Source of the DNA: Parapontixanthobacter aurantiacus
GTDB lineage: Bacteria; Pseudomonadota; Alphaproteobacteria; Sphingomonadales; Sphingomonadaceae
Length of the DNA: 64,000 bases
Direction: 5' to 3'
Assembly (NCBI RefSeq): GCF_009827635.1
Contig: NZ_WTYW01000001.1
Location: 638,001 to 702,000, forward strand
Shown: positions 37,648 to 63,565 of the stretch, piece by piece
Layout of the letters: each line of letters begins with the position of its first letter
Numbering within the stretch: the first letter of the stretch is position 1
Notes under the pieces: model-generated
Database searches by the model: none
What the model was told of the DNA's origin: nothing
The model's input: the letters and a program-made list of their open reading frames with translations, nothing else
Position numbers and translations under genes: made by a program

Positions 37648-39495
37648 ATGCCTGCCGTCAATCGCCGAAAATTTCTTGGAACAAGTGCCAGCGGGCTGGG
37701 CCTGCTTGGCCTGGGCGGTGCCGTTCCCGCTTGGGCGCGAGGCGGAGATCTGCTCTCCGGGGCCGCCCGGCGAGGTATCGATGAGGCGACCGGACCGAAT
37801 ATCGATCTGACGGTTGCGCGCTCGGCTTTCTCCACCGGCAACAGGCGTGGCGGCGCGATTGCCGTCAATGGCAGCATCCCTGGGCCACTCCTTCGCCTGC
37901 GCGAAGGGACCACCGTCCGCCTCAACGTCCATAACCAGCTTGAGGAAGACACCTCGATCCACTGGCATGGCCTGCTCGTGCCGTTCCAGCTCGATGGCGT
38001 GCCGGGCGTAAGTTTTCCCGGCGTGAAGCCGGGCGAGACCTTCACAGCGGAATTTCCCGTGCGGCAGGCAGGCACCTATTGGTGGCATTCGCATAGCGGG
38101 CTGCAGGAACAGGCCGGTCATTATGGTCCGATCGTGGTCGATCCCGCAGGTCCCGATCCGGTGCAGGCCGACCGCGAATATATCGTGGTGCTGAGCGAGT
38201 TCAGCGAAATGTCGCCCCACACGATATTCGACAAGCTCAAGAAGGGCGAAGGCTACTTCAACTACAACCAGAATACCTGGACCGACGACTATCCGCTCTC
38301 GGGCGAGGATCGCCGGATGTGGGCCAGAATGCGCATGATGCCAACCGACATCCTCGATGTGTCGAGCGCAACTTATACATATCTGCTGAACGGTCATGGA
38401 CCGCTCGACAATCTGGAATATCTTTTCCGTCCGGGCGAGCGTGTGCGGCTTCGGTTCATCAATGCCGGCGCCATGACATTTTTCAATATTCGCATTCCCG
38501 GCCTGCCGATGACCGTGGTTCAAGCCGACGGGCAGAACGTCGAGCCGGTCGAAGTGGACGAGTTCCAGATCGGCGTCGCGGAAACCTACGACGTCGTGGT
38601 GACGCCGGGTGAGCAGCAGGCTTACACGCTGATGGCGGAGTCGATGGATCGGTCAGGTATGGGCATCGCAACGCTGGCGAGCACGCCCGGCGCGCGTGCG
38701 GCCATCCCGCCGCTGCGCGATCCCCCGCTGCTCACTATGGCCGATATGGGCATGAGCGGTATGGACCATGGCTCCGGCGGCGATGCTGGTATGGCCGGCA
38801 TGGACCATGGCGCTGGCGGGATGGCCGGAATGGATCACGGATCGAGCGGAGCGGCTGGCGCGGACGGGATGTCCGGTATGGATGGCGGTTCGGCGGAGAT
38901 GACCGGAATGGCTGGCATGGCGGGAGGCATGCAGATGCGCGATACCTCGCTATTGCCTCCCGATGTGAAGGTCGGACCGGGCATCGACATGGTGTCGATG
39001 AACCCGGTCGACCGGATGGGCGATCCCGGGATTGGCCTTGCCGATGTCCCGCACCGTACCCTCGACTATCGCAAGCTGCGCGCGCTGACACCAAACAAGG
39101 ACTCGCGAAGCCCTTCGCGCCGGATGGAAATCCATCTTACCGGGAACATGGAACGCTACATGTGGTCGTTCGACGGCAAGAAATTCTCCGCCGTCTCCGA
39201 GGAGCCGATCCGCTTTGCCTATAATGAACGCGTGCGGGTAAAGCTGATCAATGACACGATGATGGCACACCCGATCCATCTGCACGGACACTTCTTCGAG
39301 CTGGTCAACGGTGCACCTCCAAACCGTCAACCACTGAAGCACACGGTTATCCTGCAACCGGGTGGCAGCGCGCAGTTCGACCTGACGGCGGACGAGCCGG
39401 GCGACTGGGCCTTCCACTGCCACCTTCTCTATCACATGCATGCCGGGATGTTTCAGATCGTCACGGTTGCCAATCCTGCCGGAGAGGGCGCATGA
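37648..39495 (+). CDS. copA: CopA copper-resistance multicopper oxidase (PcoA family)
   Basis: This 615-residue protein has a Tat signal (NRRKFLGTSASGLGLLGLGG) and copper-ligand groups HWHG, WWHSHSG, HPIHLHGH and HCHLLYHMHAGMF. A central insert (about residues 365-430) has many MDHG/MAGM-type Met-His repeats, as in PcoA/CopA, which bind several extra copper ions. The start is set by AGGAG at 37637-37641. It overlaps copB by 4 bases. It would oxidise and store Cu in the periplasm. The symbol copA here means the oxidase, not the ATPase at 22755. Confidence 0.94.
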   Translation: MPAVNRRKFLGTSASGLGLLGLGGAVPAWARGGDLLSGAARRGIDEATGPNIDLTVARSAFSTGNRRGGAIAVNGSIPGPLLRLREGTTVRLNVHNQLEEDTSIHWHGLLVPFQLDGVPGVSFPGVKPGETFTAEFPVRQAGTYWWHSHSGLQEQAGHYGPIVVDPAGPDPVQADREYIVVLSEFSEMSPHTIFDKLKKGEGYFNYNQNTWTDDYPLSGEDRRMWARMRMMPTDILDVSSATYTYLLNGHGPLDNLEYLFRPGERVRLRFINAGAMTFFNIRIPGLPMTVVQADGQNVEPVEVDEFQIGVAETYDVVVTPGEQQAYTLMAESMDRSGMGIATLASTPGARAAIPPLRDPPLLTMADMGMSGMDHGSGGDAGMAGMDHGAGGMAGMDHGSSGAAGADGMSGMDGGSAEMTGMAGMAGGMQMRDTSLLPPDVKVGPGIDMVSMNPVDRMGDPGIGLADVPHRTLDYRKLRALTPNKDSRSPSRRMEIHLTGNMERYMWSFDGKKFSAVSEEPIRFAYNERVRVKLINDTMMAHPIHLHGHFFELVNGAPPNRQPLKHTVILQPGGSAQFDLTADEPGDWAFHCHLLYHMHAGMFQIVTVANPAGEGA

Positions 39496-45123: not shown

Positions 45124-46167
45124 ATGACAGCCCGGATAAATCGCTTGGCCACAGCCGTGCCGGATTGCGATTTCGAGAAAGATTATCGGCAATGGGCGTT
45201 GCGGCAGCTCGAAGGTCGCCGCGAAGCGCGCCTTTATGCGCGCATGGCAGAGCGCTCCGGCATCGACCACCGCTGGTCCATCCTGTCCGAAGAAGATGCG
45301 AAGCTGGATGAAGGAACCGGGTTCTACTCGGCGGAGGCACCATCCACCGCGCAGCGGATGACGATCTATGCCGAAGAGGCACCGACGCTAGCTATGGCGG
45401 CGATCGCCAAGCTGGGCGATATCGGTAAGATAACGCATCTCGTCGTAGCAAGCTGCACAGGCTTCGTCGCACCGGGCATCGATCAGATCCTCGCGCGGCG
45501 CCTCGGACTGGCGGACGATGTCGAGCGGGTGCTGGTCGGCTTCATGGGTTGCTATGCGGCGGTGACCGCCCTGCGGACGGCGCGGCATATCGTCCGCTCC
45601 GAATCGGGGGCGCGGGTTCTCGTGGTGACGGTCGAACTCTCGACATTGCATCATCAGCAGACCGTGGACATCGAGCCATTGCTGGCGGGCGCGCAGTTCG
45701 GAGACGGCGCCGCGGCGGCAATCATCAGCGGAAGCGGGGAGGGCCTCGCCATAGAGGCGGGAATCGCGGCGGCGCTCGAAGAGAGCGACGAACTGATAAC
45801 CTGGCAGATCGGCAATACCGGCTTCGAGATGCGCCTATCAGGCGAAGTGCCGACACGCATCCGCAGCGCACTCAAGCGCGAGGATGTCCGCGAGCGCGTC
45901 ATCGGGGACGGCGTAAAGCCCGTAGCCTATGCCGTTCACGCGGGCGGTCGATCCATTCTCGATGCGGTGGCGGACGGCCTCGATCTGGACGACGATGCGC
46001 TCGATCACTCGCGCGGCGTGCTGCGCGATTTCGGCAATATGTCGTCTTCGACGCTGATGTTCGTGCTCGAAAGAACCTACAGGGATCGACCCGAAAGCGG
46101 GGTCGCGCTGGCCTTCGGACCCGGCCTCGCGATGGAGGGCTTCCGCTTCGCCTGGCGCGATGCTTGA
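45124..46167 (+). CDS. Type III polyketide synthase
   Basis: This 347-residue thiolase-fold enzyme has the catalytic triad Cys143 (GFMGCYAA), His272 (AVHAGGRS) and Asn305 (FGNMSSST), as in chalcone-synthase-type enzymes. It condenses malonyl-CoA units onto a starter acyl-CoA and cyclises the chain to alkylresorcinols or pyrones. The starter and ring type cannot be read from the sequence. It overlaps the methyltransferase gene by 8 bases, giving a three-gene operon. Confidence 0.92.
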   Translation: MTARINRLATAVPDCDFEKDYRQWALRQLEGRREARLYARMAERSGIDHRWSILSEEDAKLDEGTGFYSAEAPSTAQRMTIYAEEAPTLAMAAIAKLGDIGKITHLVVASCTGFVAPGIDQILARRLGLADDVERVLVGFMGCYAAVTALRTARHIVRSESGARVLVVTVELSTLHHQQTVDIEPLLAGAQFGDGAAAAIISGSGEGLAIEAGIAAALEESDELITWQIGNTGFEMRLSGEVPTRIRSALKREDVRERVIGDGVKPVAYAVHAGGRSILDAVADGLDLDDDALDHSRGVLRDFGNMSSSTLMFVLERTYRDRPESGVALAFGPGLAMEGFRFAWRDA

Positions 46168-46846
46168 GCAGCGATCCGAGGCAGAGGAAATCATGGACGA
46201 CCCCGCGCTTGACGCGGACGTCTACGCCGCGGTTCTGAACGATCTGGCGAAGGTCAATACGGTCACGCTGGCGCGCCGGCCGACGCTGCGTTTTCTCGAA
46301 AAGGCGCTGGGTCGCGCGACGGAGTTCTCGCTGCTCGATGTGGGGTTCGGCGATGGCGACATGCTTCGCGCAATTGCAAAATGGGCGCGCGAGCGAGGGA
46401 AAACCGCACGACTGGTCGGCATCGACCTCAATTCGCGCAGCGAGACAGTCGCCCGTAAGAGCACGCGCGCCGACGAGCCGATCGAATATCGCACCGGGGA
46501 TTATGCCGAGCTTGCAGGAGACCGGTTCGATTTCATCGTTTCGAGCCTCGTCGCTCACCACATGACGCATGAGCAACTGGTCGCCTTCCTGCGTTTCATG
46601 GAAAGTGAGGCGGCGAAGGGATGGTTCGTCAACGACCTGCACCGGCATGGTTTCGCCTATATGGGGTACCCGGTGCTGGCCCGGCTGTTCGGCTGGCACG
46701 AAATCGTGAGACGGGACGGGCATCTTTCCATCGCGCGCTCCTATCGACCGCACGAATGGCCACCGCTTCTCGACGAAGCCGGGATAGAGGGAGCCGAGGT
46801 GAAGCGCGTCTTCCCCTTCCGTCTGTGCGTGGAGCGGATCAAATGA
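46160..46846 (+). CDS. Class I SAM-dependent methyltransferase
   Basis: This 228-residue protein has a SAM-binding motif (LLDVGFGDGDML, about residues 57-68), GIDLN (acid after beta 2) and a MSxLVAHHMT-like motif. It lies between the polyketide synthase and flavoprotein genes, with overlaps on both sides (8 and 4 bases). It probably methylates the polyketide product at O or C. The fold differs from the isoprenylcysteine-type methyltransferase known from srs phenolic-lipid operons. Confidence 0.87.
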   Translation: MLEQRSEAEEIMDDPALDADVYAAVLNDLAKVNTVTLARRPTLRFLEKALGRATEFSLLDVGFGDGDMLRAIAKWARERGKTARLVGIDLNSRSETVARKSTRADEPIEYRTGDYAELAGDRFDFIVSSLVAHHMTHEQLVAFLRFMESEAAKGWFVNDLHRHGFAYMGYPVLARLFGWHEIVRRDGHLSIARSYRPHEWPPLLDEAGIEGAEVKRVFPFRLCVERIK

Positions 46847-47910
46847 CACGGCCGATCGTCCTCGGCGCGGGACCTGCAGGAAGCGTGGCCGCAATGCTTC
46901 TGGCGCGGGCCGGGGCGGAACCGATCCTTATCGACCGACAGGTGGAGGTGGGCGACGCGATCTGCGGCGGCTTCATGAGTTGGCGCACCGCGGCGAGCCT
47001 CCGCGCACTCGGCAGCGATCCGCTGACGCTCGGAGCGCGGCCCGTAACGCGCCTGCGCCAGTACTCTGGCGAGCGCGTGGCCGAAGCCGATCTGCCCGAA
47101 CCTGCCTATGGCCTGTCGCGCAAGGCGCTCGACACGGCCCTCCGCGCCTCGGCGGTGCAGTGTGGAGCGCGCCTCGAAATCGATCGTGCCCGCAGCGTCA
47201 AAGAAGGGGAGATCGAGGGCGAACGGCGAAGCTGGCATAGTCCCGCCATTTTCCTGGCGACCGGAAAACATGACGTGCGCGGCGAAGCCCGTGCGCGGAA
47301 CAGCGGCAATCTTGCGCTCGGGCTCCGCGTGCGACTTCCGCCATCATCCGAACTCGAGCGGCTCGTCGGCGATGCGATCGAATTGCATCTGTTCGAAGGC
47401 GGATATGCGGGCATTGTCCTGCAAGAGGGCGGAAACGGAAATGTCTGCCTTGCCCTTCGCAAGTCGGCACTGGCCGAGGCGGGCGGCGATCCGTGGGATT
47501 TGCTGAGGAAGGTGGCGACGGACAATCCGCATTTTGCATCGCGCTTGGCGTTAGCTGACGCCGAAGAGCCGGTCGATACGATCGGTGCGGTTCCCTATGG
47601 CTGGACCGCCCGAAAGACGAGCCATGGCATCTACCGGTTGGGTGATCAGGCGGCGGTCATTCCGTCGCTTGCCGGAGAGGGCATGGCGATCGCACTGGCG
47701 AGCGGACAGGCGGCGGCACGAGCTTATCTGGCGGGAGAGTCTGCCGAACTGTTCCAGCGGCGGTTCGCGCAGCGCGCAGCCAGACCGGTCCGCGTTGCGG
47801 AGAAATTGTGGCATCTTGCCGAGACTTCACGCGGCGCGGCAGGATTGACGCTAGCGGCAAGCGCGTTTCCCGAACTGGCGCGCCTTGCCATGAAGATGAG
47901 TCGGATCTGA
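46843..47910 (+). CDS. FAD-dependent oxidoreductase (geranylgeranyl-reductase-like)
   Basis: This 355-residue flavoprotein has an N-terminal dinucleotide motif (VLGAGPAGSVAAMLLARAG) and a second FAD motif (YRLGDQAAVIPSLAGEGMAIAL, about residues 265-286). The start ATG at 46843 overlaps the methyltransferase stop. It would hydroxylate or reduce the product made by the first two enzymes. In known phenolic-lipid clusters a flavin monooxygenase oxidises the resorcinol ring to a quinone, which is a reasonable model. Confidence 0.87.
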   Translation: MTRPIVLGAGPAGSVAAMLLARAGAEPILIDRQVEVGDAICGGFMSWRTAASLRALGSDPLTLGARPVTRLRQYSGERVAEADLPEPAYGLSRKALDTALRASAVQCGARLEIDRARSVKEGEIEGERRSWHSPAIFLATGKHDVRGEARARNSGNLALGLRVRLPPSSELERLVGDAIELHLFEGGYAGIVLQEGGNGNVCLALRKSALAEAGGDPWDLLRKVATDNPHFASRLALADAEEPVDTIGAVPYGWTARKTSHGIYRLGDQAAVIPSLAGEGMAIALASGQAAARAYLAGESAELFQRRFAQRAARPVRVAEKLWHLAETSRGAAGLTLAASAFPELARLAMKMSRI

Positions 47911-48479: not shown

Positions 48480-49988
48480 TCAGTGCTGGCGAGGGGCGGG
48501 GCAGTATCGTTCGAGATAGGCCGCATGGCTCGGCATCTGCTGCACGAGCCACTGGATCGACTTCGCCATTTCGTCGATTTCCCCGGCAGAGCGATTGGCG
48601 ACGCCCTCTGCCATCGGGCTGGTCCCTTCCATCGCGATGCCCTGACCCATCATCACCGCCGCCCAGCTGGTCGTGGTGAACAACTCGTCCTCTTCGCGAA
48701 AAACCTGTCCGTTGGCGCGGAAGATTTCGATCTTTTCGGTCAGCGTGTCGGGGACGCTCATTGTGCGGCAGTAATTCCAGAATTCGGAATCGTCGCGCTG
48801 CGTCGCCTTGTAATGCAGGATGAGGAAATCCCTGATCCGCTCGTATTCCTTGGTCGTCAGGCGATTGTAGGTATTCGCCTGCGACGCGTGCACTCCGTCG
48901 AGGGACAGCATCGCGATGAGCTTGTTCACCCCGGTATTGATGAGGTGGATCGATGTGCTTTCGAGCGGCTCCATGAAGCCGGAGGCGAGGCCCAAAGCAA
49001 CGACGTTCTTGTTCCAGAACTTCTTTCTTCGTCCCGTGACGAACCGCAGGTGGTTGGGCTCGGCGGTCGGCTTGCCGGCGAGGTTCGTCTCCAGGATGTC
49101 CTGCGCCTCGTCGGCTTCCATGAACTGGCTGCAATAGACGTGGCCGTTGCCGTTGCGATGTTGCAGCGGGACCTGCCACTGCCAACCTGCCTTGTGAGCG
49201 GTTGCCCGGGTGAAGGGCGGGGGCGGCGAGCCGTCGTCGCGATTGCAGGGCAGGGCGACCGCCCTGTCGCAGGGGAGATAATTGGTCCAGTCCACATAGC
49301 CCGTCCCGAGCGCCTGTTCGATCAGCAAACCGCGAAACCCGGTACAGTCGACGAAGAAGTCGCCGTCAATCTGCGTGCCGTCCTTGAGCGAGAGACTGGC
49401 GACATAGCCGCTTTCTCCGTCGAGCCGGACGTCCTCGACGATCCCCTCCTTCCGCGTCACGCCGCGCTTCTCGGCGTAGTCGCGCAAATAGCGCGCATAG
49501 GCCGTGGCATTGATGTGATAGGCGTAGTTCATCGGCGGCAGGTCGTCCCGGCCGTAATCCTGGCTGCGCGAGAACTTTCCGAAATGCGCCGCCATCGTTT
49601 CGAGGTTGAAGAGCTGAAGCGGGCGCTTGTCGCCGCGCTGCCGCAACTGGTGCCAGACCTGGTGAAAGCCGATGCCGCCGAGATCGTAGCCGTAATTGCC
49701 GAACGGGTGGATGTAGCTTTCGCCGACTTGCCCCCAGTTGACGAATTGGATGCCGAGCTTGAAAGTCCCGTCGACGCGCGACAGGAATTCGCGTTCGTCG
49801 ATCTCGAGCGCGCGATTGAACTCCACGAAGGGCGGGATGGTCGCTTCGCCGACCCCGATCGTGCCGATCATTTCCGATTCGACGACGGTGATCTTCAGGT
49901 TCCGTCCGTCGCGAATGCGCGACAATGCTGCCGCTGCCATCCATCCGGCGGTTCCGCCGCCAACGATCACGATATGCTCTATTGCCAT
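48480..49988 (-). CDS. Tryptophan halogenase-like flavoprotein
   Basis: This 502-residue flavin-dependent protein has GGGTAGW (residues 9-15), GVGEATIP, a WQWQVPLQ form of the WxWxIP motif, Lys77 (FKLGIQFVNWG) and Glu343 (EPLESTSIHL). These fit the catalytic Lys79 and Glu346 of PrnA, so it may be active. Proteins of this family are common beside TonB receptors in Caulobacter-type carbohydrate loci, with no known substrate. It is divergent from the TonB receptor with LacI-type sites between. Start at 49988 (MAIEHIV). Confidence 0.9.
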   Translation of the reverse strand: MAIEHIVIVGGGTAGWMAAAALSRIRDGRNLKITVVESEMIGTIGVGEATIPPFVEFNRALEIDEREFLSRVDGTFKLGIQFVNWGQVGESYIHPFGNYGYDLGGIGFHQVWHQLRQRGDKRPLQLFNLETMAAHFGKFSRSQDYGRDDLPPMNYAYHINATAYARYLRDYAEKRGVTRKEGIVEDVRLDGESGYVASLSLKDGTQIDGDFFVDCTGFRGLLIEQALGTGYVDWTNYLPCDRAVALPCNRDDGSPPPPFTRATAHKAGWQWQVPLQHRNGNGHVYCSQFMEADEAQDILETNLAGKPTAEPNHLRFVTGRRKKFWNKNVVALGLASGFMEPLESTSIHLINTGVNKLIAMLSLDGVHASQANTYNRLTTKEYERIRDFLILHYKATQRDDSEFWNYCRTMSVPDTLTEKIEIFRANGQVFREEDELFTTTSWAAVMMGQGIAMEGTSPMAEGVANRSAGEIDEMAKSIQWLVQQMPSHAAYLERYCPAPRQH

Positions 49989-50061: not shown

Positions 50062-50077
50062 TTGTGAACGCTCACAA
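50062..50077. promoter_or_regulatory. LacI-type operator candidate 2
   Basis: TTGTGAACGCTCACAA is inverted-repeat-like (7 of 8 positions match) and close to the ideal LacI-family form TTGTGAGCGCTCACAA. It is 91 bases before the TonB-receptor start and 74 bases before the halogenase start. Confidence 0.65.
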
Positions 50078-50167: not shown

Positions 50168-53100
50168 ATGTCTCGTAACACGACTGGCGCGCGCGCATTT
50201 TCGCGGAAAATCGCCGCTTTCACCACCGCATCCGGTCTTGCCCTGATCGCGGCGCAGCCTGCTTTCGCCCAAGCCGAGGACGAGGACGAGGGCGCTGTCA
50301 CGAACGAATTCCCGGCCGGCACTCCCGAGGGGCTGGAAGAAGAAAACGTCATCATCGTGACGGGGATCGCCGCCTCGCTCAGCACGGCACAGGATTTCAA
50401 GGAACGCGCCGATACCGTCATCGACGTCATCACAGCAGAAGACATCGGCGCGCTGGCCGACCGCTCCGTTGCCGAAGCGTTGCAACGCGTCCCGGGCATC
50501 GCCATCGGCCGGTTCGAGAAAACCTCGGACCCGACCCGCTTCTCGGTCGAAGGCACGGGCGTCATCATTCGCGGCCTCCCGGACAATTTCGGCCGCTCCG
50601 AACTGAATGGCCGGGACATCTTCTCGGCCAATGGCGGCCGAGCGCTGAGTTTCGAGGACGTGTCGCCCGAGCTGGTCGGCCGCGTCGAAATCTACAAGAA
50701 CGTCACCGCCGACATGATCGAAGGGCAGATTTCCGGCCTCGTCAATCTCGTCACCCGCAAGCCGCTCGACACGCCCGGCTTCCGTATCGCCGGTTCGGTA
50801 GAAGCCAATTACGGCGATCTGCGCGAGGAATGGTCGCCGACCTTCAACATCATCGCATCCGACACTTTCGAGACGGGGGTCGGCACGTTCGGTTTGCAGG
50901 CCAGCTATTCGAAGTCGAAGCTGAAAAGCCGTACCGACTCATCGCAGGCAATCGACACCTGTTATCGGCCCGCCGATCTCAGCGCCGGATGCCAGCGCGT
51001 TTTCGACCTTAACTCCGGCGGTTTCGGCGACGAGCCGAACTTCACACCGGAACAATTCCCGCCCGAAGGCTCGGTTCTCGTGCCGCAATATGCCGGTGTC
51101 CGCTCGACGACGCTCGACCGCGACCGTGAGGCAATTTCGGGCGTAGCGCAGTTCGAAACGCTCGACGGCGGTCTCTTGATGACGCTCGAGTATCTGCGGT
51201 CCGAAACGACATTCGCGACCGAGGAATTTGCGCTGATCGGCCGGATTGACGACGGTGTTTCCTCGCCGGACCTGAGGTCCGACAGCGACACTTTGTTCGA
51301 GGACGGCAGGCTCGTGCGCGGTATCCTGACGGATAATGTCGGCGACCCTTACGCAACGCCCTTCGGGCTTGGCGGCATTCCGCTCGACAGCCTGCGCTTC
51401 CTGCGCGAACTCAAGAGCACGACGCAGGATCTCTCGCTCGACATCGACACGGTCTTCACCGATCGGTTCCGCGGCAATTTCGAGATGCAATATCTCAGTT
51501 CCGACCTGACGCGCGATTCCGTCTTCGGCGCGCTCAGCACCTGGGCGGATATCGATCTCGATCTCACCGGCGAAGTGCCCGATGTCCGCTTCATCGCGCC
51601 CATCGGAGCGCCGGACGATTATTTCAGTTCCGGATTTTACACCTATTACTGGTTCGGGCTCGACAGCCGCGAACGAAACGATGGCGAACTGTTCAGCCTG
51701 CGTGGCGATTTCGAATACGACATCAGTGACGAAGGTTTCTTCAAGAAGGCGCGTTTCGGCGCGCGGTGGGCTGCGCGCGAACGCACGACGCGCAACACCA
51801 ATTTCAGCACCTGGGGCAACCTTTCGGCACCGTGGACCGGTCGGGGCGGATGTGGTCCTGGCGGCGGCGGACCGGGCTGCCAGCCGGGCGCGGTGGGAAC
51901 TCTGTCCTATGAGTGGGGCGCGCCGGGCTTTACCCCGGGCCGCTTCTACACCGGATTGCCCGATCAGGAATTCGCCATCGCCGGCGGCGCCTATACGGAC
52001 GAATTCCCCAACTATTCGCAATTGCGCAATCCCTTCGCGGACAGCTTCCAGCGGGGCGAAACGAGATCTCCGATCGAGAACGGCGCTGCTTATTTCTACG
52101 GCGGGGACGACTTTCTGCAGGAATATCTCGACGGTGTAACGGACCAGCAATGGGACGAGATCACGACATTCAGCCAGTCGCCTGAGCGTTTCAATCTCGG
52201 CGTCAACGGGCGGACGCGGCCGCTGCTGGACGGGAGGGTCGTCGAATGCGATCCCTTCTGCCCGGCCGAAATCTCGGACGTTACCGAAGAGACCGGCGCG
52301 GCCTATGCGCGTGTCGATTATGGCATGGACTTCGACGGCGGCTGGTCGCTCGGCGGCAATATCGGTTTGCGCTATGTGCAGACAACGGTCCAAACCCGCG
52401 GTCTGCTGGCGTTTCCCGATCCCGGCCAGTTCGATGACGTCCGGATCGTGGACGGCGTCAACGAGGGCGGCAACGGTGACGGCATCGTGCAACCGGGAGA
52501 AATTCTTAATAGCTGTCCAGACGTGCCGGACGGGGCCGAGATCGATCCCGATACGGGTTCGGTGTTTTCACGTGAGGTGCTCTATTGCGAACTGGAAGGC
52601 GACCGGTTGGCGCAATATGCTTCGCTATTTACTGGCGATCTCGTGCGAGACGATCGGGACGTCACCTTCGACCACTGGCTGCCGAGCTTCAACATCAGGC
52701 TCGACAGCGGCACGGGTATCGTCCTTCGCGGGGCAATTTCGAAGGGCATCGTTCGTCCGGAACTCAACAATTTTGCTCGCAACGGCGTTTTCGGCTTCAG
52801 TGGCCGCGTCGACTCCGGACCGCTTCTCTCCGTCAATACCGGCAACAGGGAAGTACGTCCGGTAGAATCGTGGAACTACGATATCTCGGCTGAGTGGTAT
52901 TTCGCTGATGTCGGTTCGCTGACGGCCGCGTTCTTCGTGAAGGATATTACCGGCCTAATCGACAGCGGGACGGGCCTTCAGACCTATACCGGCGGGAACG
53001 GCACGACGGCCGATGTGATCATTACCGGCCCGGCCAATGATTACGACGGTGTGCTGAAAGGCGCCGAACTGGCTTATCAGCATCAGTTCGACTTCCTGCC

Positions 53101-53590
53101 CGGTCTGTTGAGCGGCTTCGGCGTGCAGGCATCCTACACTTACATCGATGCAGGCGACTTCACCAACCCGACGCTGTCGTCGATCGGGTCGCCGTCCGTC
53201 GCCGACGGCTCGGCACCGCTCAATGCCGGCCCGTTCCAGCAGCAATTGCCGCTGCGCGGATTCTCCGAGCATACGGTCAATGCGGTGGCGTTCTACGAAT
53301 ACGGTCCGTTTTCGGCTCGTGCCGCCTATAACTGGCGGAGCGAGTTCCTCGTCACGCCGCGCGACGACCTGTTCCCGTTCTCGCCGACCTTCCAGGAAGC
53401 GGGCGGACAACTCGATGCGTCGATCTTCTACACGGTCAACGATTTCCTGAAGCTGGGCGTGCAGGGCGTTAACCTGCTCGATGAAGTGACGCAATTGACG
53501 ACCGTCGTCGATTACGAGGGCACGCGGGTATTGAGCAACGCCTTCCGCAACGATCGGCGTTATACGTTCATCGCGCGCTTCGCCTTCTAA
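50168..53590 (+). CDS. TonB-dependent outer-membrane receptor (carbohydrate type)
   Basis: This 1140-residue protein has a signal peptide ending AQPAFAQ (about residue 35), a TonB-box-like region (EENVIIVTGIAAS), a plug (VIDVITAEDIGALADRSVAEALQRVPGI) and a long beta-barrel ending in an aromatic residue (FIARFAF). The size and shape are of the Caulobacter/sphingomonad sugar-polymer type. The start at 50168 is set by GGGAGAGGGAG upstream. It likely imports beta-glucan oligosaccharides cut by the GH16 enzyme. Confidence 0.92.
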   Translation: MSRNTTGARAFSRKIAAFTTASGLALIAAQPAFAQAEDEDEGAVTNEFPAGTPEGLEEENVIIVTGIAASLSTAQDFKERADTVIDVITAEDIGALADRSVAEALQRVPGIAIGRFEKTSDPTRFSVEGTGVIIRGLPDNFGRSELNGRDIFSANGGRALSFEDVSPELVGRVEIYKNVTADMIEGQISGLVNLVTRKPLDTPGFRIAGSVEANYGDLREEWSPTFNIIASDTFETGVGTFGLQASYSKSKLKSRTDSSQAIDTCYRPADLSAGCQRVFDLNSGGFGDEPNFTPEQFPPEGSVLVPQYAGVRSTTLDRDREAISGVAQFETLDGGLLMTLEYLRSETTFATEEFALIGRIDDGVSSPDLRSDSDTLFEDGRLVRGILTDNVGDPYATPFGLGGIPLDSLRFLRELKSTTQDLSLDIDTVFTDRFRGNFEMQYLSSDLTRDSVFGALSTWADIDLDLTGEVPDVRFIAPIGAPDDYFSSGFYTYYWFGLDSRERNDGELFSLRGDFEYDISDEGFFKKARFGARWAARERTTRNTNFSTWGNLSAPWTGRGGCGPGGGGPGCQPGAVGTLSYEWGAPGFTPGRFYTGLPDQEFAIAGGAYTDEFPNYSQLRNPFADSFQRGETRSPIENGAAYFYGGDDFLQEYLDGVTDQQWDEITTFSQSPERFNLGVNGRTRPLLDGRVVECDPFCPAEISDVTEETGAAYARVDYGMDFDGGWSLGGNIGLRYVQTTVQTRGLLAFPDPGQFDDVRIVDGVNEGGNGDGIVQPGEILNSCPDVPDGAEIDPDTGSVFSREVLYCELEGDRLAQYASLFTGDLVRDDRDVTFDHWLPSFNIRLDSGTGIVLRGAISKGIVRPELNNFARNGVFGFSGRVDSGPLLSVNTGNREVRPVESWNYDISAEWYFADVGSLTAAFFVKDITGLIDSGTGLQTYTGGNGTTADVIITGPANDYDGVLKGAELAYQHQFDFLPGLLSGFGVQASYTYIDAGDFTNPTLSSIGSPSVADGSAPLNAGPFQQQLPLRGFSEHTVNAVAFYEYGPFSARAAYNWRSEFLVTPRDDLFPFSPTFQEAGGQLDASIFYTVNDFLKLGVQGVNLLDEVTQLTTVVDYEGTRVLSNAFRNDRRYTFIARFAF

Positions 53591-53745: not shown

Positions 53746-54804
53746 ATGGCACGTCGGCGCCAGTCGGTGACGATCAAGCATGTGGCAGCGGATGCAGGGG
53801 TTTCCCTGCAAACCGTCAGCCGCGTCATCAATAACGAGCCGAATGTGCGCCCCGCCATGAAAGAGCGCGTGCAGGCGAGTATCGACCGGCTCGGCTACGT
53901 TCCCTCGATCGCGGCGCAGCGCATGAGCGGCTCCCGGTCCTACATTATCATGGCAATCAACGACCGGGATCTGACGATCGCCGACTGGCGGGCGCGGGAA
54001 GGGCGCGACTGGGTCGACCAGATGCTGCTCGGCGGCATGCTGACCTGCGCGAAGCACGGCTATCGGATGCTGATCGAGCTCGTCGATACGCATAACGACC
54101 ATGTCGAGCGCGAATTGGGGGCGGCGATTGCGGCGTTGCAGCCCGACGGCGTCATCCTGACCCCGCCCCATTCGGAGAACTCGCTGATCACACGGCTGCT
54201 TGCGAAAAGGGGCATTCCTTTCGCGCGGATCGGGTCTATGCAGGACGGGCCCGGCATCGCGATGTCGATGGGCGACGAGCACAATTCGGCGCTCGCGACG
54301 AAGCATCTCATCGAACTGGGTCATGAGCGGATCGGTTTGATCGCCGGTCCGACGGATTTCAGCCTGTCGCAATGGCGCATCGAAGGCTGGCGGCAAGCTT
54401 TGGGCGAGGCCGGTCTGCCGCACGAAAATTATCTGGAGCGCGGTGATTTCGGGTTCGAGAGTGGTATTGCAGCGGCCGGCAAGCTGCTCGATCTGGACGA
54501 GGCCCCGACGGCGATCATCGCCAGCAGCGATCAGATGGCGCTCGCCACGCTCGAAGTTGCGGGCAAACGCGGCCTAAGCGTCCCACGGGACCTGTCGCTA
54601 GTGAGCTTTGACAACTCGCCCATCGTGCGCTTCACGAGGCCGCCGCTGACGGCAGTGGACCAGCCAATCGCCGCGACCATATCGCGCGCGGTGGAACTGC
54701 TCATCGAACCGCCCGAAGATAATCCCGGCCACGAACCCGTCATCGTCGAAGGCGAGCTGGTCGTTCGCGGATCGACCGCAACAGCGCCGCGACGTGACGG
54801 ATAG
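53746..54804 (+). CDS. LacI-family transcriptional regulator
   Basis: This 352-residue protein has an N-terminal helix-turn-helix (TIKHVAADAGVSLQTVSRVINNEPNVRP) and a periplasmic-binding-protein-like sensor domain (EHNSALATKHLIELGHERIGLIAG). It should repress the locus and let go on binding a sugar. It is downstream of the TonB receptor and overlaps the MFS gene by 11 bases. The operator candidates near 50041, 50062 and 56034 are its likely targets. Confidence 0.92.
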   Translation: MARRRQSVTIKHVAADAGVSLQTVSRVINNEPNVRPAMKERVQASIDRLGYVPSIAAQRMSGSRSYIIMAINDRDLTIADWRAREGRDWVDQMLLGGMLTCAKHGYRMLIELVDTHNDHVERELGAAIAALQPDGVILTPPHSENSLITRLLAKRGIPFARIGSMQDGPGIAMSMGDEHNSALATKHLIELGHERIGLIAGPTDFSLSQWRIEGWRQALGEAGLPHENYLERGDFGFESGIAAAGKLLDLDEAPTAIIASSDQMALATLEVAGKRGLSVPRDLSLVSFDNSPIVRFTRPPLTAVDQPIAATISRAVELLIEPPEDNPGHEPVIVEGELVVRGSTATAPRRDG

Positions 54805-55993
54805 CAAATCCACGGTTCCGCCGCGCCAGTCGAGGCGGTTCATGTGGCTTTATGCGCTGGCCGTCGCGGGCGGATCGGTGTCCTACGTTCCCTTCCTTAC
54901 ACTGCTTCTTCCCGTTCGTGTTGCCGAGTTCTCGGCCGGTCGCACGATCGATTATCTCGCTTATATTGCCTTTTTCGGCGCTATCGCCGCCAGCCTCGCC
55001 AATATCGGTTTCGGCTGGGCCAGCGATCGCACGGGGCGCCGCGAGCCGTGGATCGTCGGCGGCCTCTTGCTTTCCTGCCTGCTTCTCGTTTCGGTAAGGG
55101 CTACGGACGGTCCGCTCGAACTCATCGTGACGATCGTGCTTTGGCAGATCGCAATTAACATGATGCTTGGGCCACTTGCCGCCTGGGCCGGCGATGTCAT
55201 TCCCGACGAACAGAAGGGATTGCTCGGCGGGCTACTAGCTTTCGCGCCGGCGCTGGGGGCAGCCTCCGGCGCGCTTGTGACATTTCCCGGACTGGCGGGA
55301 CAGGATGACCGGCTCTTGCTCGTGGCCGGGCTGGTTGCCTGCATGGTCCTGCCGGTAATCGTCTTCGGAAAGCCGCGTCCTATGCCGCACCTCGTCGCTC
55401 CGAGTGAGGTTTCGGGCAAGCGACCGCGGAGTTTCGGGCGGGGCGCCGTTCGCAAGATGTGGCTCGCGAGGCTGCTCGTGCAGATTACCGAGGCAGCTTT
55501 GTTCGCCTACCTCCTCGTTTGGATAATGGGCATCGACGAGGCTTTCACCGACAACGATACGGCGCGCCTGTTCGCCGTCGTGCTCGGTCTTTCGGTCCCG
55601 CTCGCGCTTCTGGCTGGGCGATGGTCGGACCGTCACGACCGGCCGATCATCCTGCTCGCAGTGGGAGCGGGCGTAGGCGGTTGCGGTCTTTTGCTGATGG
55701 CGCTGTCATCCAGTCTCGCGGGAGCGATCGCCGGTTACATGGTGTTCGGTCTGTCGACCGGCGTGTTCCTCGCCCTGCATTCCAGCCAGACCTTGCGCGT
55801 GCTGCCCCGGCCAGAGACTCGCGGGCGCGACCTCGGCCTGTTCAATCTTACCAATACCGTTCCCAGCCTCATCATGCCGTGGATCGCGATTGCGCTCGTG
55901 CCGAGTTTCGGCTTTGGCGCGCTCTTTTTCGTTCTGGCTGCATTGGCAGCGATGGCGATGGCGTTGCTCCTGACGATCAGCCGGACCCGATAG
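54794..55993 (+). CDS. MFS sugar transporter
   Basis: This 399-residue, twelve-helix protein has a DRTGRREP loop between helices 2 and 3 (about residues 75-82), the family's loop signature. The start is a GTG at 54794, overlapping lacI. It probably imports mono- or disaccharides derived from beta-glucan across the inner membrane; the exact sugar is unknown. Confidence 0.88.
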   Translation: MTDSKSTVPPRQSRRFMWLYALAVAGGSVSYVPFLTLLLPVRVAEFSAGRTIDYLAYIAFFGAIAASLANIGFGWASDRTGRREPWIVGGLLLSCLLLVSVRATDGPLELIVTIVLWQIAINMMLGPLAAWAGDVIPDEQKGLLGGLLAFAPALGAASGALVTFPGLAGQDDRLLLVAGLVACMVLPVIVFGKPRPMPHLVAPSEVSGKRPRSFGRGAVRKMWLARLLVQITEAALFAYLLVWIMGIDEAFTDNDTARLFAVVLGLSVPLALLAGRWSDRHDRPIILLAVGAGVGGCGLLLMALSSSLAGAIAGYMVFGLSTGVFLALHSSQTLRVLPRPETRGRDLGLFNLTNTVPSLIMPWIAIALVPSFGFGALFFVLAALAAMAMALLLTISRTR

Positions 55994-56075: not shown

Positions 56076-58445
56076 ATGAAAGCGTTTTGGACGGCGACAG
56101 CCCTTGCGGTATGTCTTGCCGGCTGCAGCACCGTACCGAACGAGGCGAATACGCTTCCCGCGGTCTCGGGGCAGACGAGCGAGGAAGCGCGCATTGCCGA
56201 TCTGCTTTCCCGCATGAGCATCGAGCGAAAGGTCGCCCAACTCGTTCAACCGCAGATCAACAGTTTCACCGCTGAGGACATGCGCCGCTATCGGTTCGGA
56301 AGCTATCTGAACGGCGGTAATGGCGGCCCATATGGTGACGAATTCGCCGAAGCGTCCGAATGGCTGAAGCTGGCGGACGAAATGTATCTCGCCTCCGTCG
56401 AACCGCTTGAAGGAAACGAGCCGGTCATCCCGATGATGTGGGGCACCGACGCGGTTCACGGCCATACGAATGTCATTCGTGCGACCATCTTCCCTCATAA
56501 TATCGGCTTGGGTGCGACGCGCGATGCGGATCTCGTCCGCCGGATCGGGGAAGCGACCGCGACGGAAATCGCCGTCACGGGCATCGACTGGAATTTTTCG
56601 CCGACGGTCGCCGTCGCGAGGGACGATCGCTGGGGCCGGACTTACGAGAGCTATTCCGAAGATCCGGCCATCGTCGCGCCTCTGGGAGCCGCGCTGATCG
56701 AAGGACTGCAAGGCCGCCAGGGCGATCCGGACCGGTTGCGCGGCCAGCATGTTATCGCGACGGCGAAGCACTTTTTCGGCGATGGCGGAACGGACCAAGG
56801 CGTCGATCAAGGCGAAGTTACCGGCGACATCGAGAGCTTAAAGGCCATTCACGCCGCCCCCTATCCTGCCGCGATCGACGCGGGCGTCGAGGCGGTCATG
56901 GCAAGCTTCAACTCGATCAACGGCAGGAAGATGCACGGCAACGAGGCGTTGCTCACCGGCGTACTTCGCGATGAGTTGGGCTTCGACGGACTCGTGGTCG
57001 GGGACTGGAACGGGCACGGGCAAGTGGCAGGGTGCACCAATACGGATTGCCCGCAATCGCTTTTGGCGGGGCTCGACATCTACATGGTCCCGGACGAATG
57101 GCGCGGCTTGCTGGAGACGACCGTCGCGCAAGTGCGCGATGGAACCATCCCGATGGCGCGCCTCGACGAAGCGGTCGGACGGGTGCTGCGCGTCAAGATG
57201 CGGGCTGGCCTGCTCGACGAATTCGTGAGGCCGTCGCAGCGCCCCGTAGCCGGTCGCTACGACTTGCTCGGCTCGGCCGAACATAGGGCGATCGCACGAG
57301 AGGCAGTCGCCAAGTCGCAGGTCCTCTTGAAGAACAATGGCGTGCTGCCGCTGAAGGCCGGGGCCACCGTCCTCGTCGCTGGCAGCGCCGCCGACGACAT
57401 CGCGCAGGCTGCGGGCGGTTGGACCCTGACATGGCAGGGCGGGGGCGATCTCGACAACGAGTACTTTCCCGGCGCCACCTCCATCTGGCAGGGACTGAAG
57501 GCTGCGACCGAAGAAAGCGGCGGAACCGCCATGCTTGCGCCCGACGGCGATTACACGACCCGCCCCGATGTCGCGATCGTCGTATTCGGCGAAGAGCCTT
57601 ACGCGGAATTCGCAGGGGACCGGAAGAATGTCGCATTCTCCGACGAGGAGGGACTGGCGCTCCTGCGGCGGTTCGAAGCCGAAGACATTCCGACCGTGGC
57701 GGTGTTCCTGTCGGGCCGTCCGATGTGGGTCAATCGCGAGTTGAACGCGGCCGACGCCTTCGTCGCTGCCTGGTTGCCGGGTAGCGAGGGAGCTGGCATC
57801 GCCGACGTCCTGACCGGCACCGAACCTTCCACCGGGCGACTGAGCTTCAGCTGGCCGCGCGGTTGCGATGCGGGGCCGGTGAACGGGCCGGAAAAGGCGC
57901 TGTTCCCGGTCGGCTACGGCCTTTCGCTGACCCAGCGGTCCAGCCTGCCGATGCTCGACGAAAGCTGCGACGCCTTGCTCGCGGCGAGCGGCTCCGACTG
58001 GTTCGTCAACGGCCGGTTCGAGCAGGGCATAACGGCAGTGGCGGGCGGGGTCGCCTTGCCCGATCTGCGTGGAGCGGGCGGCGGCGTCACGGCACGCGGG
58101 ATCGACCGGAATGCTCAGGAAGATTCGCGCGAGATCACATTCACGCCCGGCTCGGCCCTGACCATATCGCAGACCGAAGAGGGCGAGGGGGCTTACCGCA
58201 TCGTCTACCGTGTCAGGCAGCGTCCGCAGCAAACGGTTACTCTGACGACTGGCAGCGCGACGCTTTCCCTGACGCAGCCGCTTTCGGTCGCGGCCGAGAA
58301 GGACTGGCGTGAAATGGTCATTACGGAGGAATGTGCGAGCGGGCTCGGCAACGAGCTGACGATTGCCAGCGAGGGTGCGTTCACGCTCGACATCGCCACC
58401 ATCGAACGGGACAACCTTCCCGAAGGAACCGCGTGCTCTTTCTAG
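56076..58445 (+). CDS. GH3 family beta-glucosidase (lipoprotein)
   Basis: This 789-residue enzyme has a lipobox (LAGCS) and the GH3 N-terminal barrel. The nucleophile is Asp310 in GLVVGDW, and KHFFGDGG is a substrate-binding loop. A C-terminal alpha/beta sandwich and an extra beta-rich end (about 650-789) follow. It would release glucose from beta-1,3- or beta-1,4-glucan oligomers in the periplasm. The ATG at 56076 is chosen; a TTG six bases upstream is also possible. Confidence 0.92.
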   Translation: MKAFWTATALAVCLAGCSTVPNEANTLPAVSGQTSEEARIADLLSRMSIERKVAQLVQPQINSFTAEDMRRYRFGSYLNGGNGGPYGDEFAEASEWLKLADEMYLASVEPLEGNEPVIPMMWGTDAVHGHTNVIRATIFPHNIGLGATRDADLVRRIGEATATEIAVTGIDWNFSPTVAVARDDRWGRTYESYSEDPAIVAPLGAALIEGLQGRQGDPDRLRGQHVIATAKHFFGDGGTDQGVDQGEVTGDIESLKAIHAAPYPAAIDAGVEAVMASFNSINGRKMHGNEALLTGVLRDELGFDGLVVGDWNGHGQVAGCTNTDCPQSLLAGLDIYMVPDEWRGLLETTVAQVRDGTIPMARLDEAVGRVLRVKMRAGLLDEFVRPSQRPVAGRYDLLGSAEHRAIAREAVAKSQVLLKNNGVLPLKAGATVLVAGSAADDIAQAAGGWTLTWQGGGDLDNEYFPGATSIWQGLKAATEESGGTAMLAPDGDYTTRPDVAIVVFGEEPYAEFAGDRKNVAFSDEEGLALLRRFEAEDIPTVAVFLSGRPMWVNRELNAADAFVAAWLPGSEGAGIADVLTGTEPSTGRLSFSWPRGCDAGPVNGPEKALFPVGYGLSLTQRSSLPMLDESCDALLAASGSDWFVNGRFEQGITAVAGGVALPDLRGAGGGVTARGIDRNAQEDSREITFTPGSALTISQTEEGEGAYRIVYRVRQRPQQTVTLTTGSATLSLTQPLSVAAEKDWREMVITEECASGLGNELTIASEGAFTLDIATIERDNLPEGTACSF

Positions 58446-58553
58446 GCTGATCGGGTAATTCTTTTTGCATGCCGGCAAGAGACCGGCAGTCAATCGGCGC
58501 GGCGATATCTCGGCTTCGAGGGAATCGTGCCGAGCTTTGGGAGGATAATGACA

Positions 58554-59846
58554 ATGGCACTCGCACCCGATGTGGCAACGAGCACGGATCCGCATCCCGT
58601 CGAAGAGGACGCGGGCGGCATTCACGCGCCCGGTCTCAACTATTTCGTCTTCGGTCTGTTCTTCATCTTCGGGGGCATCACGTCGCTCAACGACGTGCTC
58701 ATTCCCAAGCTGAAGGAGCTTTTTACCCTCAACTATACCCAGGCGATGCTCGTGCAGTTCTGCTTCTTCACCGCCTATCTCGTGATCGGGATACCGGGAG
58801 CGAAACTGGTCAAGAGACTGGGCTATATGCGCGGCGCGGTGGCGGGCCTCGTCACCATGATGCTGGGCTGCCTGATGTTCATTCCGGCGAGCCAGACGGC
58901 GACGTACTGGATGTTCCTGCTCGCGCTCTTCGTCCTCGCCAGCGGAGTGGTCATTGTGCAGGTCGTCGCCAACCCGCTGATTTCCCTCCTTGGTCCGCAG
59001 AGGACGGCGCATAGCCGCCTCACCTTCGCGCAGGCGTTCAACAGTCTCGGCACGACCGTCTTTCCGATCGTGGGCGCGGCGGTCATCCTCGGTAGCCTGG
59101 CAGGTTTGAGCGCATCCGAGCTCTCGGGTGCGGAACTGCAAGCCTATCGGCAGGCCGAAAGCGAAGCGATCTGGCAAGGCTATCTCGGCGTCGCCTGCCT
59201 CATCGCACTGGTGGCATTGGCGGTCTGGCTGTTTCGCAATCGTTTGCAGGGCGAGAAGCACGAGGCATCTTCGGGGCTGGCCGGGCTTGACCTGCTGAAG
59301 CGCAGCCGGTTCGGCTACGGGGCCCTGTGCATCTTCCTCTATGTGGGCGCGGAAGTCTCGATCGGCTCGATCATTATCAACTATCTCGCGCAGGATCGCG
59401 TTCTCGGCGAACCCGAAAGCGTAATCGGCTGGATGATCGGCCTTTATTGGGGCGGAGCGATGGTGGGCCGCTTCGTCGGTTCCTATTTCCTGCGCGTCTT
59501 TTCGCCGGGGAAGATTCTCGCATTCAACGCGACCGGTTCGATCGTGCTGATCCTCGTCAGCATTTTGACCTCGGGAGAAGTCGCAGCTTACAGCCTGCTC
59601 GCGGTCGGCCTCATGAACTCGATCATGTTCCCGACGATCTTCTCGCTCGCCTGCGAGAAGCTCGGCTCGCGAGCGGCGGACGGTTCGGGCATCATCAATG
59701 TCGCGATCTTCGGCGGAGCGGTCGTTCCGCTCCTCTATGGCGTCCTCGCTGATGCCAGCAGCAGCCTGGCGGTCGCGATGATCCTGCCGATCGCCTGCTA
59801 CGCAATCATTGCCGGTTTCGGTCTGTTCGCGCGGCGTCCGGCATGA
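58554..59846 (+). CDS. FucP-type glucose/galactose MFS transporter
   Basis: This 430-residue, twelve-helix protein has the FucP/GluP features GGITSLNDVLIPKLKELF and a long middle loop. The start at 58554 has GGGAGG 9 bases upstream; 58548 is a close alternative. It would import glucose released by the GH3 enzyme by proton symport. It lies between GH3 and GH16 genes on the same strand. Confidence 0.9.
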   Translation: MALAPDVATSTDPHPVEEDAGGIHAPGLNYFVFGLFFIFGGITSLNDVLIPKLKELFTLNYTQAMLVQFCFFTAYLVIGIPGAKLVKRLGYMRGAVAGLVTMMLGCLMFIPASQTATYWMFLLALFVLASGVVIVQVVANPLISLLGPQRTAHSRLTFAQAFNSLGTTVFPIVGAAVILGSLAGLSASELSGAELQAYRQAESEAIWQGYLGVACLIALVALAVWLFRNRLQGEKHEASSGLAGLDLLKRSRFGYGALCIFLYVGAEVSIGSIIINYLAQDRVLGEPESVIGWMIGLYWGGAMVGRFVGSYFLRVFSPGKILAFNATGSIVLILVSILTSGEVAAYSLLAVGLMNSIMFPTIFSLACEKLGSRAADGSGIINVAIFGGAVVPLLYGVLADASSSLAVAMILPIACYAIIAGFGLFARRPA

Positions 59847-59892: not shown

Positions 59893-60789
59893 ATGATGAA
59901 CGTTTACAAGGCACTGCTGACTGCGACGGCGTGCGTGATTTTCGCACCCGCCTGCGCCCAGAACACAGCGCCCCAGTCGGTGGCTGCGGCCCCGTCGGAA
60001 GAACTGATCTTCGCCGACGATTTCGATGGCGGCTCGCTCGACCGGAGCAAGTGGAATGTCGTCGGCCCGACCTTTTGGGTGAACGAAGAGGAGCAGGCCT
60101 ATATTGACGCGCCTCGCACCATCGCATTCGCCGCCGCGGGTAGCGTCGATGGCGCGGCAGACGGCGTCTTGCGCCTGCAACCGCGCTTCGAAGAGGGATT
60201 CGAGACCCCGACCGGGCGCAAGGCCGACTTCGTCTCCGGGCGAATCACGACCGAGGAAAAGTTCGATTTCACCTATGGTCGCGCCGTCGCCCGCATCCGG
60301 ATGCCCGACGCGACCGGCGTGTGGCCGGCCTTCTGGCTGCTCGGCAACGGGCAATGGCCGGACACCGGCGAAATCGACATCATGGAATATGTCGGGGAAG
60401 CCGACTGGACGGGCGTCGCTCTCCACGGTCCGGGCTATTCGGGCGAGACGCCCCTCGTGAACAAGTACTTCTTCGAGCCCGGTACCGACGTCACCGACTG
60501 GCACGAATACGAAGTCGACTGGAACGCCGAGCGCATCCTGTTCAAAGTCGATGGTCGGCTGACCTACCGGGTGACGCGGCCCATGGTCGAGAATTACGGC
60601 GAATGGCGCTTCGATACGCCCAAGCACATCATCCTGAACTTCGCGGTCGGCGGCGTTTATCCGTTCAAGACCAACGGTATCTCCGAACCCTACAAGGGTC
60701 TGCCCGCTGCCACGGTCGAGCGGATCAAGGCGGGCGAACTCGCGATGGAAGTCGACTGGGTGCGCGTCTATCGCTCGGACGAACGATAG
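59893..60789 (+). CDS. GH16 family endo-beta-glucanase (laminarinase-like)
   Basis: This 298-residue secreted enzyme has a leader ending CAQ (Cys-containing, possibly lipidated) and the GH16 catalytic motif GEIDIMEYVG. Glu160 (nucleophile), Asp162 and Glu165 (acid/base) are present. Flanking WPAFWLLG and EVDWVRVY strands are typical. Beta-1,3-glucan (laminarin) is the most likely substrate, with porphyran or agar types less likely. The end is 16 bases from the convergent cassette B. Confidence 0.92.
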   Translation: MMNVYKALLTATACVIFAPACAQNTAPQSVAAAPSEELIFADDFDGGSLDRSKWNVVGPTFWVNEEEQAYIDAPRTIAFAAAGSVDGAADGVLRLQPRFEEGFETPTGRKADFVSGRITTEEKFDFTYGRAVARIRMPDATGVWPAFWLLGNGQWPDTGEIDIMEYVGEADWTGVALHGPGYSGETPLVNKYFFEPGTDVTDWHEYEVDWNAERILFKVDGRLTYRVTRPMVENYGEWRFDTPKHIILNFAVGGVYPFKTNGISEPYKGLPAATVERIKAGELAMEVDWVRVYRSDER

Positions 60790-60805: not shown

Positions 60806-61321
60806 TCAGGCGCTCGCCGTTCCGTAGCATTGCGCAAAGCCGCGATAGCCGAGCTCGTCCTTCGCATCGGGCGGCACCATGATCATTTCCTGCATTTGCA
60901 GTCCGGCATTGCCGGTCTCGTCGATCAGCCGCGTCACGATCAGCAGCCCGCCCGCCATGTAGCGGTTCTCGCCGCTGGCACGGAGCGGAACGAGCTTGCC
61001 GTTGAGCTTGATGAAGGCGTCGCCACCTGCCTCGTACACGAAGGCGGGAAAAGACATTTCGGTCAGGCGGAAGACGCAGCGGTCTGCCGTTCCGCCGATG
61101 GCACGAATATCGGCATCGGACATCGTCTCCGGCTTTACGATTTCGACGGCTACATTTGCCAAGGCCTCTTCGACGCCGACGATCGGAGCCGCTTGTGGAG
61201 CAGGGTACATCCCGGCTTCCCGGTCGTTGCCGAGCGCGGTGTTCTGGTTGCAACCGGCCAGCAGGACTGAACCGGCGAGGGCGAGGGCGAGGGGGAGGGC
61301 GCGAGTCATCGTTCGGGTCAT
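60806..61321 (-). CDS. Lipoprotein of the four-gene membrane cassette (copy B)
   Basis: This 171-residue paralogue of the protein at 30589 has lipobox LLAGCNQN, shared GNDREAG, CVFRLTEMSFPAFVYE, FIKLNGKLVPL, LQMQEMI and a C-terminal CYG. The two conserved Cys are kept. The start overlaps the DUF305 stop by 4 bases. Unknown function; the divergence from copy A suggests the two have been separate for some time. Confidence 0.82.
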   Translation of the reverse strand: MTRTMTRALPLALALAGSVLLAGCNQNTALGNDREAGMYPAPQAAPIVGVEEALANVAVEIVKPETMSDADIRAIGGTADRCVFRLTEMSFPAFVYEAGGDAFIKLNGKLVPLRASGENRYMAGGLLIVTRLIDETGNAGLQMQEMIMVPPDAKDELGYRGFAQCYGTASA

Positions 61322-61902: not shown

Positions 61903-61903
61903 C

Positions 61904-63554: not shown

Positions 63555-63565
63555 CATCATTTCCT

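Follow-up and report, generated by a model that had tools for sequence, protein, structure and literature searches.

The window, the whole 64-kb stretch of DNA analyzed here, contains a flavin-dependent halogenase gene of the BrvH/Xcc4156 type on the minus strand (48480..49988), beside which a row of plus-strand genes begins with a TonB-dependent receptor of the TIGR01782 subfamily (50168..53590; 570 bits against a cut-off of 310; start codon picked by eye). Gene calling with a codon-usage script, also used for the loci compared below, placed behind the receptor, in this order and on the same strand, a LacI-family regulator (53746..54804), an MFS transporter (54842..55993, with a longer start possible at 54794), a GH3 enzyme (56076..58445), a GluP-type sugar MFS transporter (58548..59846; TIGR01272 above cut-off) and a GH16 enzyme (59893..60789). 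A LacI-type operator-like palindrome, TTGTGAACGCTCACAA (50062..50077), lies between the divergent start codons of the halogenase and the receptor. The closest solved relative of the GH3 protein is the exo-1,3/1,4-beta-glucanase 3usz (695 bits), and the GH16 protein, with its GEIDIME motif intact, is nearest to beta-1,3-glucanases/laminarinases. Because of these two assignments, the description as a beta-glucan locus, under which an earlier note had grouped the TonB receptor with GH3 and GH16 enzymes, is well founded.

Loci of this composition resemble the CUT locus, described in the main text of PMC1790865 as a TonB receptor with degradative enzymes, an inner-membrane transporter and a sugar regulator. 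The receptor, glycoside hydrolases, inner-membrane transporters and sugar regulator are all matched in the window, whereas the halogenase is an extra: the word "halogenase" is absent from that main text. On the other side of the halogenase, a type III polyketide synthase, a methyltransferase and a geranylgeranyl-reductase-like FAD enzyme stand in a row (45124-47910). The glucan locus also adjoins a metal-resistance region (1-3234, 17612-20779, 22755-25085 and 37648-39495), which encodes a multicopper oxidase, a heavy-metal P-type ATPase and a pair of large paralogues that share 34% identity and look, by eye, like RND pumps. The region with the glucan locus is flanked by a duplicated cassette of glutaredoxin/MauE, DUF305 and other genes (30589-32769 and 60806-63078, also 35628-35837 and 63075-63569), whose two copies are 52-85% identical per protein.

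The halogenase reading frame opens with an ATG at 49988 and encodes 502 aa; a GTG at 50075 would give a longer protein, and aligned relatives start at or near the ATG. Its match to PF04820 (E=2e-188; 627 bits against a cut-off of 21) covers residues 6-464, a whole-length family match. Across the window protein and 12 relatives, the FAD motif GxGxxG (G10-x-G12-x-x-G15) does not vary, and neither do K77, W269, W271, P274, E343 and S344. In an alignment of 147 clade-type rows, both Trp of WxWxxP are conserved throughout, and K77, E343 and S344 in 146 rows each. K77 and E343 align with the catalytic Lys and Glu of BrvH, residues whose RebH counterparts are K79 and E357 according to the BrvH paper. 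The earlier note's equation of Lys77 and Glu343 with the catalytic residues of PrnA is thus upheld by way of BrvH, PrnA itself having been compared by superposition (Z 49.2). The WxWxIP-like motif it had read as WQWQVP is likewise found at 269-274 (W269-Q-W-Q-V-P274), with Val for Ile and both Trp and the Pro present. At the second halide-site position stands Ser346 (Ser in 143/147 clade-type rows), replacing the Gly of Fx.Px.Sx.G, a trait of free-tryptophan halogenases. No export signal was seen by eye, and the protein starts directly with the FAD-binding fold. With the catalytic set intact and conserved, an apparently active halogenase, as first proposed, is what the alignment predicts.

To place the protein among solved structures, an AlphaFold2 model was built from 24 sequences (mean pLDDT 88.7). 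A phmmer search against the PDB gave 9luq, Xcc4156 (6y1w) and BrvH (6frl) as the top three. The best superposition was with 9luq, a tryptophan halogenase of Pseudoalteromonas sp. L11 and the nearest solved structure (Z 59.1, 1.4 Å over 488 residues, 45% identity), for which our literature search recognized no publication. BrvH (Z 57.5, 1.6 Å, 489 residues, 44% identity) and Xcc4156 (Z 56.8, 1.5 Å, 492 residues, 46% identity) are tied, followed by SttH (Z 54.2, 33% identity); PrnA superposes at 2.0 Å over 484 residues with about 32% identity. PrnA and RebH, which halogenate free Trp, have the fold, FAD motif, Lys, Glu and WxWxxP in common with the window protein; they differ in carrying Gly in place of Ser at the halide site and in length (538 aa against 502 aa). 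PrnA and RebH are members of antibiotic clusters and are not known from sugar loci. By sequence and model, then, the gene at 48480-49988 is a PF04820 flavin-dependent halogenase of the BrvH/Xcc4156 group.

BrvH from Brevundimonas BAL3 has the catalytic Lys and Glu and the halide-site Ser in common with the window protein, and the sequence alignment places no insert across the short-loop region. According to the main texts on these enzymes, most flavin-dependent halogenases have Gly at the second halide-site position and BrvH and two Xcc brominases have Ser; Xcc4156 from Xanthomonas campestris belongs, like the window protein, to the open-pocket brominase group, and differs by an Asn at the halide site where the window protein has Ser346. 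BrvH and Xcc4156 are described there as acting on indole compounds, not free Trp, with bromide preferred or exclusive, and their authors, noting the open pocket, weigh large or peptide substrates. Both BrvH and the Xcc enzymes were studied as biocatalysts, and their native substrates are given as not known. Bromination of indole at C3 was demonstrated for BrvH, though at low activity, whereas the window enzyme is known from sequence and model. The term "TonB" does not occur in the main text of the BrvH paper.

We next considered the intergenic region between the halogenase and the receptor. With a search pattern taken from the site at 50062-50077 itself, the rest of the 64-kb window yielded two matches, each with 3 mismatches. 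A scan with TTGTGANCGTTCACAA, a consensus chosen after the window and relatives had been viewed (four of those relatives match exactly), recovered the site from the window and from 16 of 17 orthologous intergenic regions, with 0-2 mismatches; these regions are homologous to one another and not independent. The position of the site ranges from -88 to -179 relative to the halogenase start, its orientation is constant, and in each of the 17 operator-bearing regions (16 orthologous plus the window) at most 1 in 200 randomized controls matched as well. One orthologue (L012; L-numbers denote loci) is without it. No sigma-70 promoters or terminators were found around the site. Since it is kept between the divergent genes in 16 of 17 regions, the halogenase and the receptor are probably induced together; the LacI-family site could control both, and the LacI protein of the locus (53746-54804) would be its ligand.

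In all 12 close orthologues among the matches listed (63-74% identity), a receptor is adjacent to and divergent from the halogenase, with a gap of 57-191 bp to the receptor open frame. Orthologous loci with enough flank carry the LacI regulator, the MFS transporter and the GH3 enzyme in 9 of 10 cases each, and some GH16 in 7 of 10. Most of these GH16 proteins share only 26-31% identity with that of the window and are encoded immediately after the receptor, which makes orthology with the window GH16 improbable. One locus (L056) retains the halogenase, receptor, LacI regulator and operator, with a Cupin_8 gene between receptor and regulator, and has no GH3, GH16 or MFS gene called.

To determine how far the receptor linkage extends, we turned to the genome of the window (G000; other genomes also carry G-numbers), which holds seven PF04820 genes in three places and 23 Plug receptors in 2.9 Mb. 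At every place, the halogenase closest to a Plug receptor is about 120-275 bp away from it; by a rough estimate, three of three places within 300 bp would arise by chance with a probability of about 1e-7. Three of the four TIGR01782 receptors above cut-off are halogenase-linked, compared with none of the 19 other Plug receptors (Fisher 0.002). The three places differ in glycan: beta-glucan in the window, GH3/GH10 in L039 and alpha-amylase in L038.

Among relatives in other genomes, we analyzed the flanking DNA of the best 80 of at least 592 confirmed relatives, which is hence no random draw. A TIGR01782-type receptor was detected by HMM in the flank of 70 of these 80; in 66 of them it is no more than 5 kb away (39 of these within 500 bp), and in the other four the distance is 6-10 kb. 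Six of the ten HMM-negative loci carry other receptor types, namely Plug type (L106, L125), a barrel fragment (L113) or an OMP_b-brl_4/TonB barrel (L073, L094, L114), bringing the total with a TonB-type receptor to 76 of the 80. A linkage specific to TIGR01782 receptors is thereby ruled out across these relatives. The four loci with no receptor seen are two at short contig ends (L085, L092), L095, with about 10 kb of flank on each side, and L097, with 10 kb on one side and 0.8 kb on the other; in L095 and L097, where one neighbor each was Pfam-scanned (an esterase and a Na/H exchanger), a receptor of another type may be present. The receptor is kept more often than any listed glycoside hydrolase cluster, which occurs in 49 of the same 80 loci: alpha-glucan type in 25, GH3/GH9/GH16 in 24 and GH10 in 7, in overlapping sets whose names, like those of the Cupin_8 and DUF6445 clusters below, derive from Pfam scans of one to three members per cluster. 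The linkage is thus wide and independent of the glycan. The earlier note's picture of a halogenase beside a receptor and glycoside hydrolases stands; the conserved operator, and a receptor retained more often than the hydrolases, lay beyond its reach.

Several of these loci showed further features. In L073 (6810-9896), L094 (3490-6528) and L114 (899-3889), clade halogenases lie near barrels with a carboxypeptidase-regulatory-like domain (PF25183/PF00593/PF13620), not of Plug type, and the L094 locus, a Xanthomonas record, has a second receptor-like gene beside the halogenase (6845-9880), called in two pieces. A scan of viral contigs gave a single distant match, a 34% identical relative on a 19.7-kb IMG/VR contig (L045:5001-6260).

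A class sample of 190 genomes, 16 of them with PF04820 at E<=1e-60, was examined with a receptor HMM that sees TIGR01782-like receptors best. A PF04820 match was also seen in Caulobacter crescentus/vibrioides, a laboratory species. Outside G000, 13 of 14 clade-type places (5 genomes) have a receptor no further than about 2 kb from one of their halogenase-family genes, compared with none of 10 places (10 genomes) of a lower-scoring, more distant PF04820 type, a difference (Fisher 6e-6) that assumes independent places and is open to a taxon confounder, as the ten distant-type places come from taxa possibly poor in receptors and three of them (L186, L187, L192) have a short flank on one side. The distant type itself is receptor-linked in G169 and G000, and in L178 the receptor adjoins a more distant-type halogenase, about 3.4 kb from the clade-type one. 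The ten distant-type genes (L186-L195), one per genome and from other alphaproteobacterial families, had no receptor found nearby; the catalytic Lys and Glu are kept in all 7 of the 10 that were checked for them.

Pairwise protein distances were then compared by the size of r alone. Over 24 loci, halogenase and receptor distances correlate at r 0.88, against 0.77 for receptor and LacI and 0.72 for halogenase and LacI; over the 21 loci with an MFS transporter, the halogenase-receptor value is 0.93 against 0.81 and 0.82. When close orthologues are left out (16 loci) the three values are 0.86, 0.77 and 0.66, and over all 63 loci the halogenase-receptor correlation falls to 0.60. TIGR01782 receptors above cut-off, 16 in all, occur in six of the 13 relatives that have no match to the window protein; such receptors thus do not require the halogenase in general. 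In open-licence main texts, tryptophan halogenase and TonB-dependent receptor are both mentioned in PMC3377617, flavin-dependent halogenase and TonB-dependent receptor in PMC7333567, and all three in PMC11337851, whose main text does not describe the halogenase-receptor linkage.

The same neighborhoods contain recurring companion genes. Among the best 80 of at least 592 relatives, Cupin_8 occurs in 15 and DUF6445, which by eye looks like a 2-oxoglutarate oxygenase, in 7; examples of one or the other beside receptor-linked halogenases are L064:13116-14126, L056:5437-6498, L039:14128-14814, L072:9208-9933 and L115:9265-9957. Two or more halogenase-family genes are present in 38 of these 80 neighborhoods, and a low-scoring one in 27. 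Of the full-length low-scoring rows drawn from the 80 loci, the class sample and G000, 24 are without the catalytic Lys and/or Glu and 13 others retain both. All 24 fall within one clade of 26, one G000 gene included, with modest support (0.595). In this degenerate clade, which excludes the window halogenase, the Lys is replaced by R, S, A, C or N and/or the Glu is lost, and the genes lie next to active-type halogenases in receptor-linked cassettes. One such paralogue is at L039:15158-16570 on the minus strand (G000:C1:1534657-1536069); others are at L064:8520, L084:8511, L172:8717 and L179:9074.

Building on the family, catalytic residues, fold, conserved operator-like site and receptor linkage established here by computation, the explanation that we consider probable as a whole is a working BrvH/Xcc4156-type halogenase that is induced by glucan together with its receptor, acts on a bulky aromatic substrate and belongs to the regular set of genes in a beta-1,3-glucan CUT locus. 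In this pathway, glucan breakdown products would free LacI from the operator at 50062-50077, followed by joint induction of the halogenase and the TonB receptor from divergent promoters. The enzyme, predicted to be cytosolic, would work with FADH2 and O2, with a predicted preference for bromide and a flavin reductase encoded elsewhere. The glucan itself would not be its substrate; this would be a bulky, electron-rich aromatic, possibly Trp or Tyr of a receptor-tied peptide or protein, made or used in receptor-driven sugar uptake.

The most serious alternative, plausible though short of probable, is that the halogenase makes a small halogenated aromatic (a signal, an antimicrobial or a self-marker) released while the cell feeds on a TonB-imported glycan. 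Free indole is taken by BrvH and the Xcc enzymes according to their main texts, co-regulation with sugar uptake would time the product to feeding, and 38 of the best 80 of at least 592 relatives lie in loci with two or more halogenase-family genes. The low turnover of indole by BrvH speaks against it, as do the lack of a recurring biosynthetic partner beyond the halogenase in the orthologous loci that were inspected and the fact that the recurrent partner is an uptake receptor. A released small molecule and a bulky or peptidyl aromatic substrate are about as likely as each other.

That the protein is instead a flavin monooxygenase or another FAD oxidase appears unlikely. Degenerate paralogues do exist, and the QhpG, CmlS and LodB models match the window protein weakly, all below cut-off; the Lys, the Glu-Ser pair and WxWxxP are nevertheless kept in 146-147 of 147 clade-type rows, and the degenerate clade shows what their loss looks like. 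According to PMC7876137, the flavoenzyme QhpG is similar to FAD halogenases and adds two hydroxyl groups to a peptidyl Trp in the cytoplasm. It is a monooxygenase; the window protein scores 37.5 bits against its cut-off of 240, which makes QhpG a precedent for mechanism and not a family assignment.

The earlier note had suggested that the enzyme may act on a phenolic side group from algal material, here entering through the locus, or on a signalling compound, of which the latter stays plausible. The position of the halogenase in a beta-1,3-glucan locus would fit the former, but among the best 80 of at least 592 relatives the alpha-glucan loci (25) are as frequent as the GH3/GH9/GH16 loci (24), related halogenases stand beside receptors in alpha-glucan, GH10, GH9 and beta-glucan loci, and the beta-glucan, GH3/GH10 and alpha-amylase loci of G000 each have halogenases. 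Laminarin is not known to carry phenolics. As the glycan varies and no export signal was seen by eye, a glycan side group is an unlikely substrate, and the algal suggestion, which these comparisons did not bear out, now seems very improbable. The three genes of the type III polyketide synthase cluster (45124-47910) lie 0.6 to 3.4 kb past the halogenase stop codon, and phenolic products of that cluster would be halogenatable. Tailoring of such a product is hardly credible, however, and was rejected, given the opposite strand, an intervening DUF2147 gene and the failure to match any of the three genes in the 11 orthologous loci whose flank on that side extends for about 9 kb or more.

Within the favored explanation, the open pocket of the relatives, the receptor linkage with its distance correlation, and the QhpG precedent incline us towards a bulky or peptidyl aromatic; a peptidyl or protein substrate in particular is a guess that we hold to be doubtful. 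We looked for a conserved target residue by comparing 17 unlinked receptors with 70 linked ones, drawn from 64 loci whose receptor is 700 aa or longer, from the window and, in 5 cases, from G-numbered genomes; in no column did Trp, His or Cys reach 70%. The largest column differences, F1066 (49/70 linked against 3/17 unlinked) and Y996 (52/70 against 4/17), may reflect ancestry. As the linked receptors are of at least three types, one common target motif in them is unlikely. Among 798 small ORFs near halogenases in the best 80 of at least 592 relatives, the window left out, no precursor-peptide family recurred in more than two loci, a search that a divergent or distant precursor would escape. 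The data settle the family, the likely chemistry, the likely timing and the partner, a list to which the substrate does not belong.

A broader reading, speculative and on balance improbable, is that these loci form an unrecognized class of O2-dependent modification cassettes for TonB-receptor systems. Active halogenases, degenerate paralogues and Cupin_8/DUF6445 enzymes would modify the nascent receptor, or a protein associated with it, in the cytoplasm, with the enzyme matched to the receptor and induced by the sugar; the degenerate paralogues would possibly serve as substrate-binding or dimer partners. If this were true, bacterial nutrient uptake would use halogenated (brominated) protein.

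The kind of enzyme found here is already known, and what is added is its context of operator, receptor linkage and degenerate paralogues. The receptor linkage and the LacI-type operator indicate where and when to seek the substrate, namely while cells grow on the inducing glycan in the presence of bromide, and the degenerate paralogues present in many cassettes offer a second handle on mechanism. "Tryptophan halogenase" annotations in such genomes should be read with caution as signs of antibiotic biosynthesis. Together, operator, receptor linkage and degenerate paralogues make the question of the native role of these halogenases testable.
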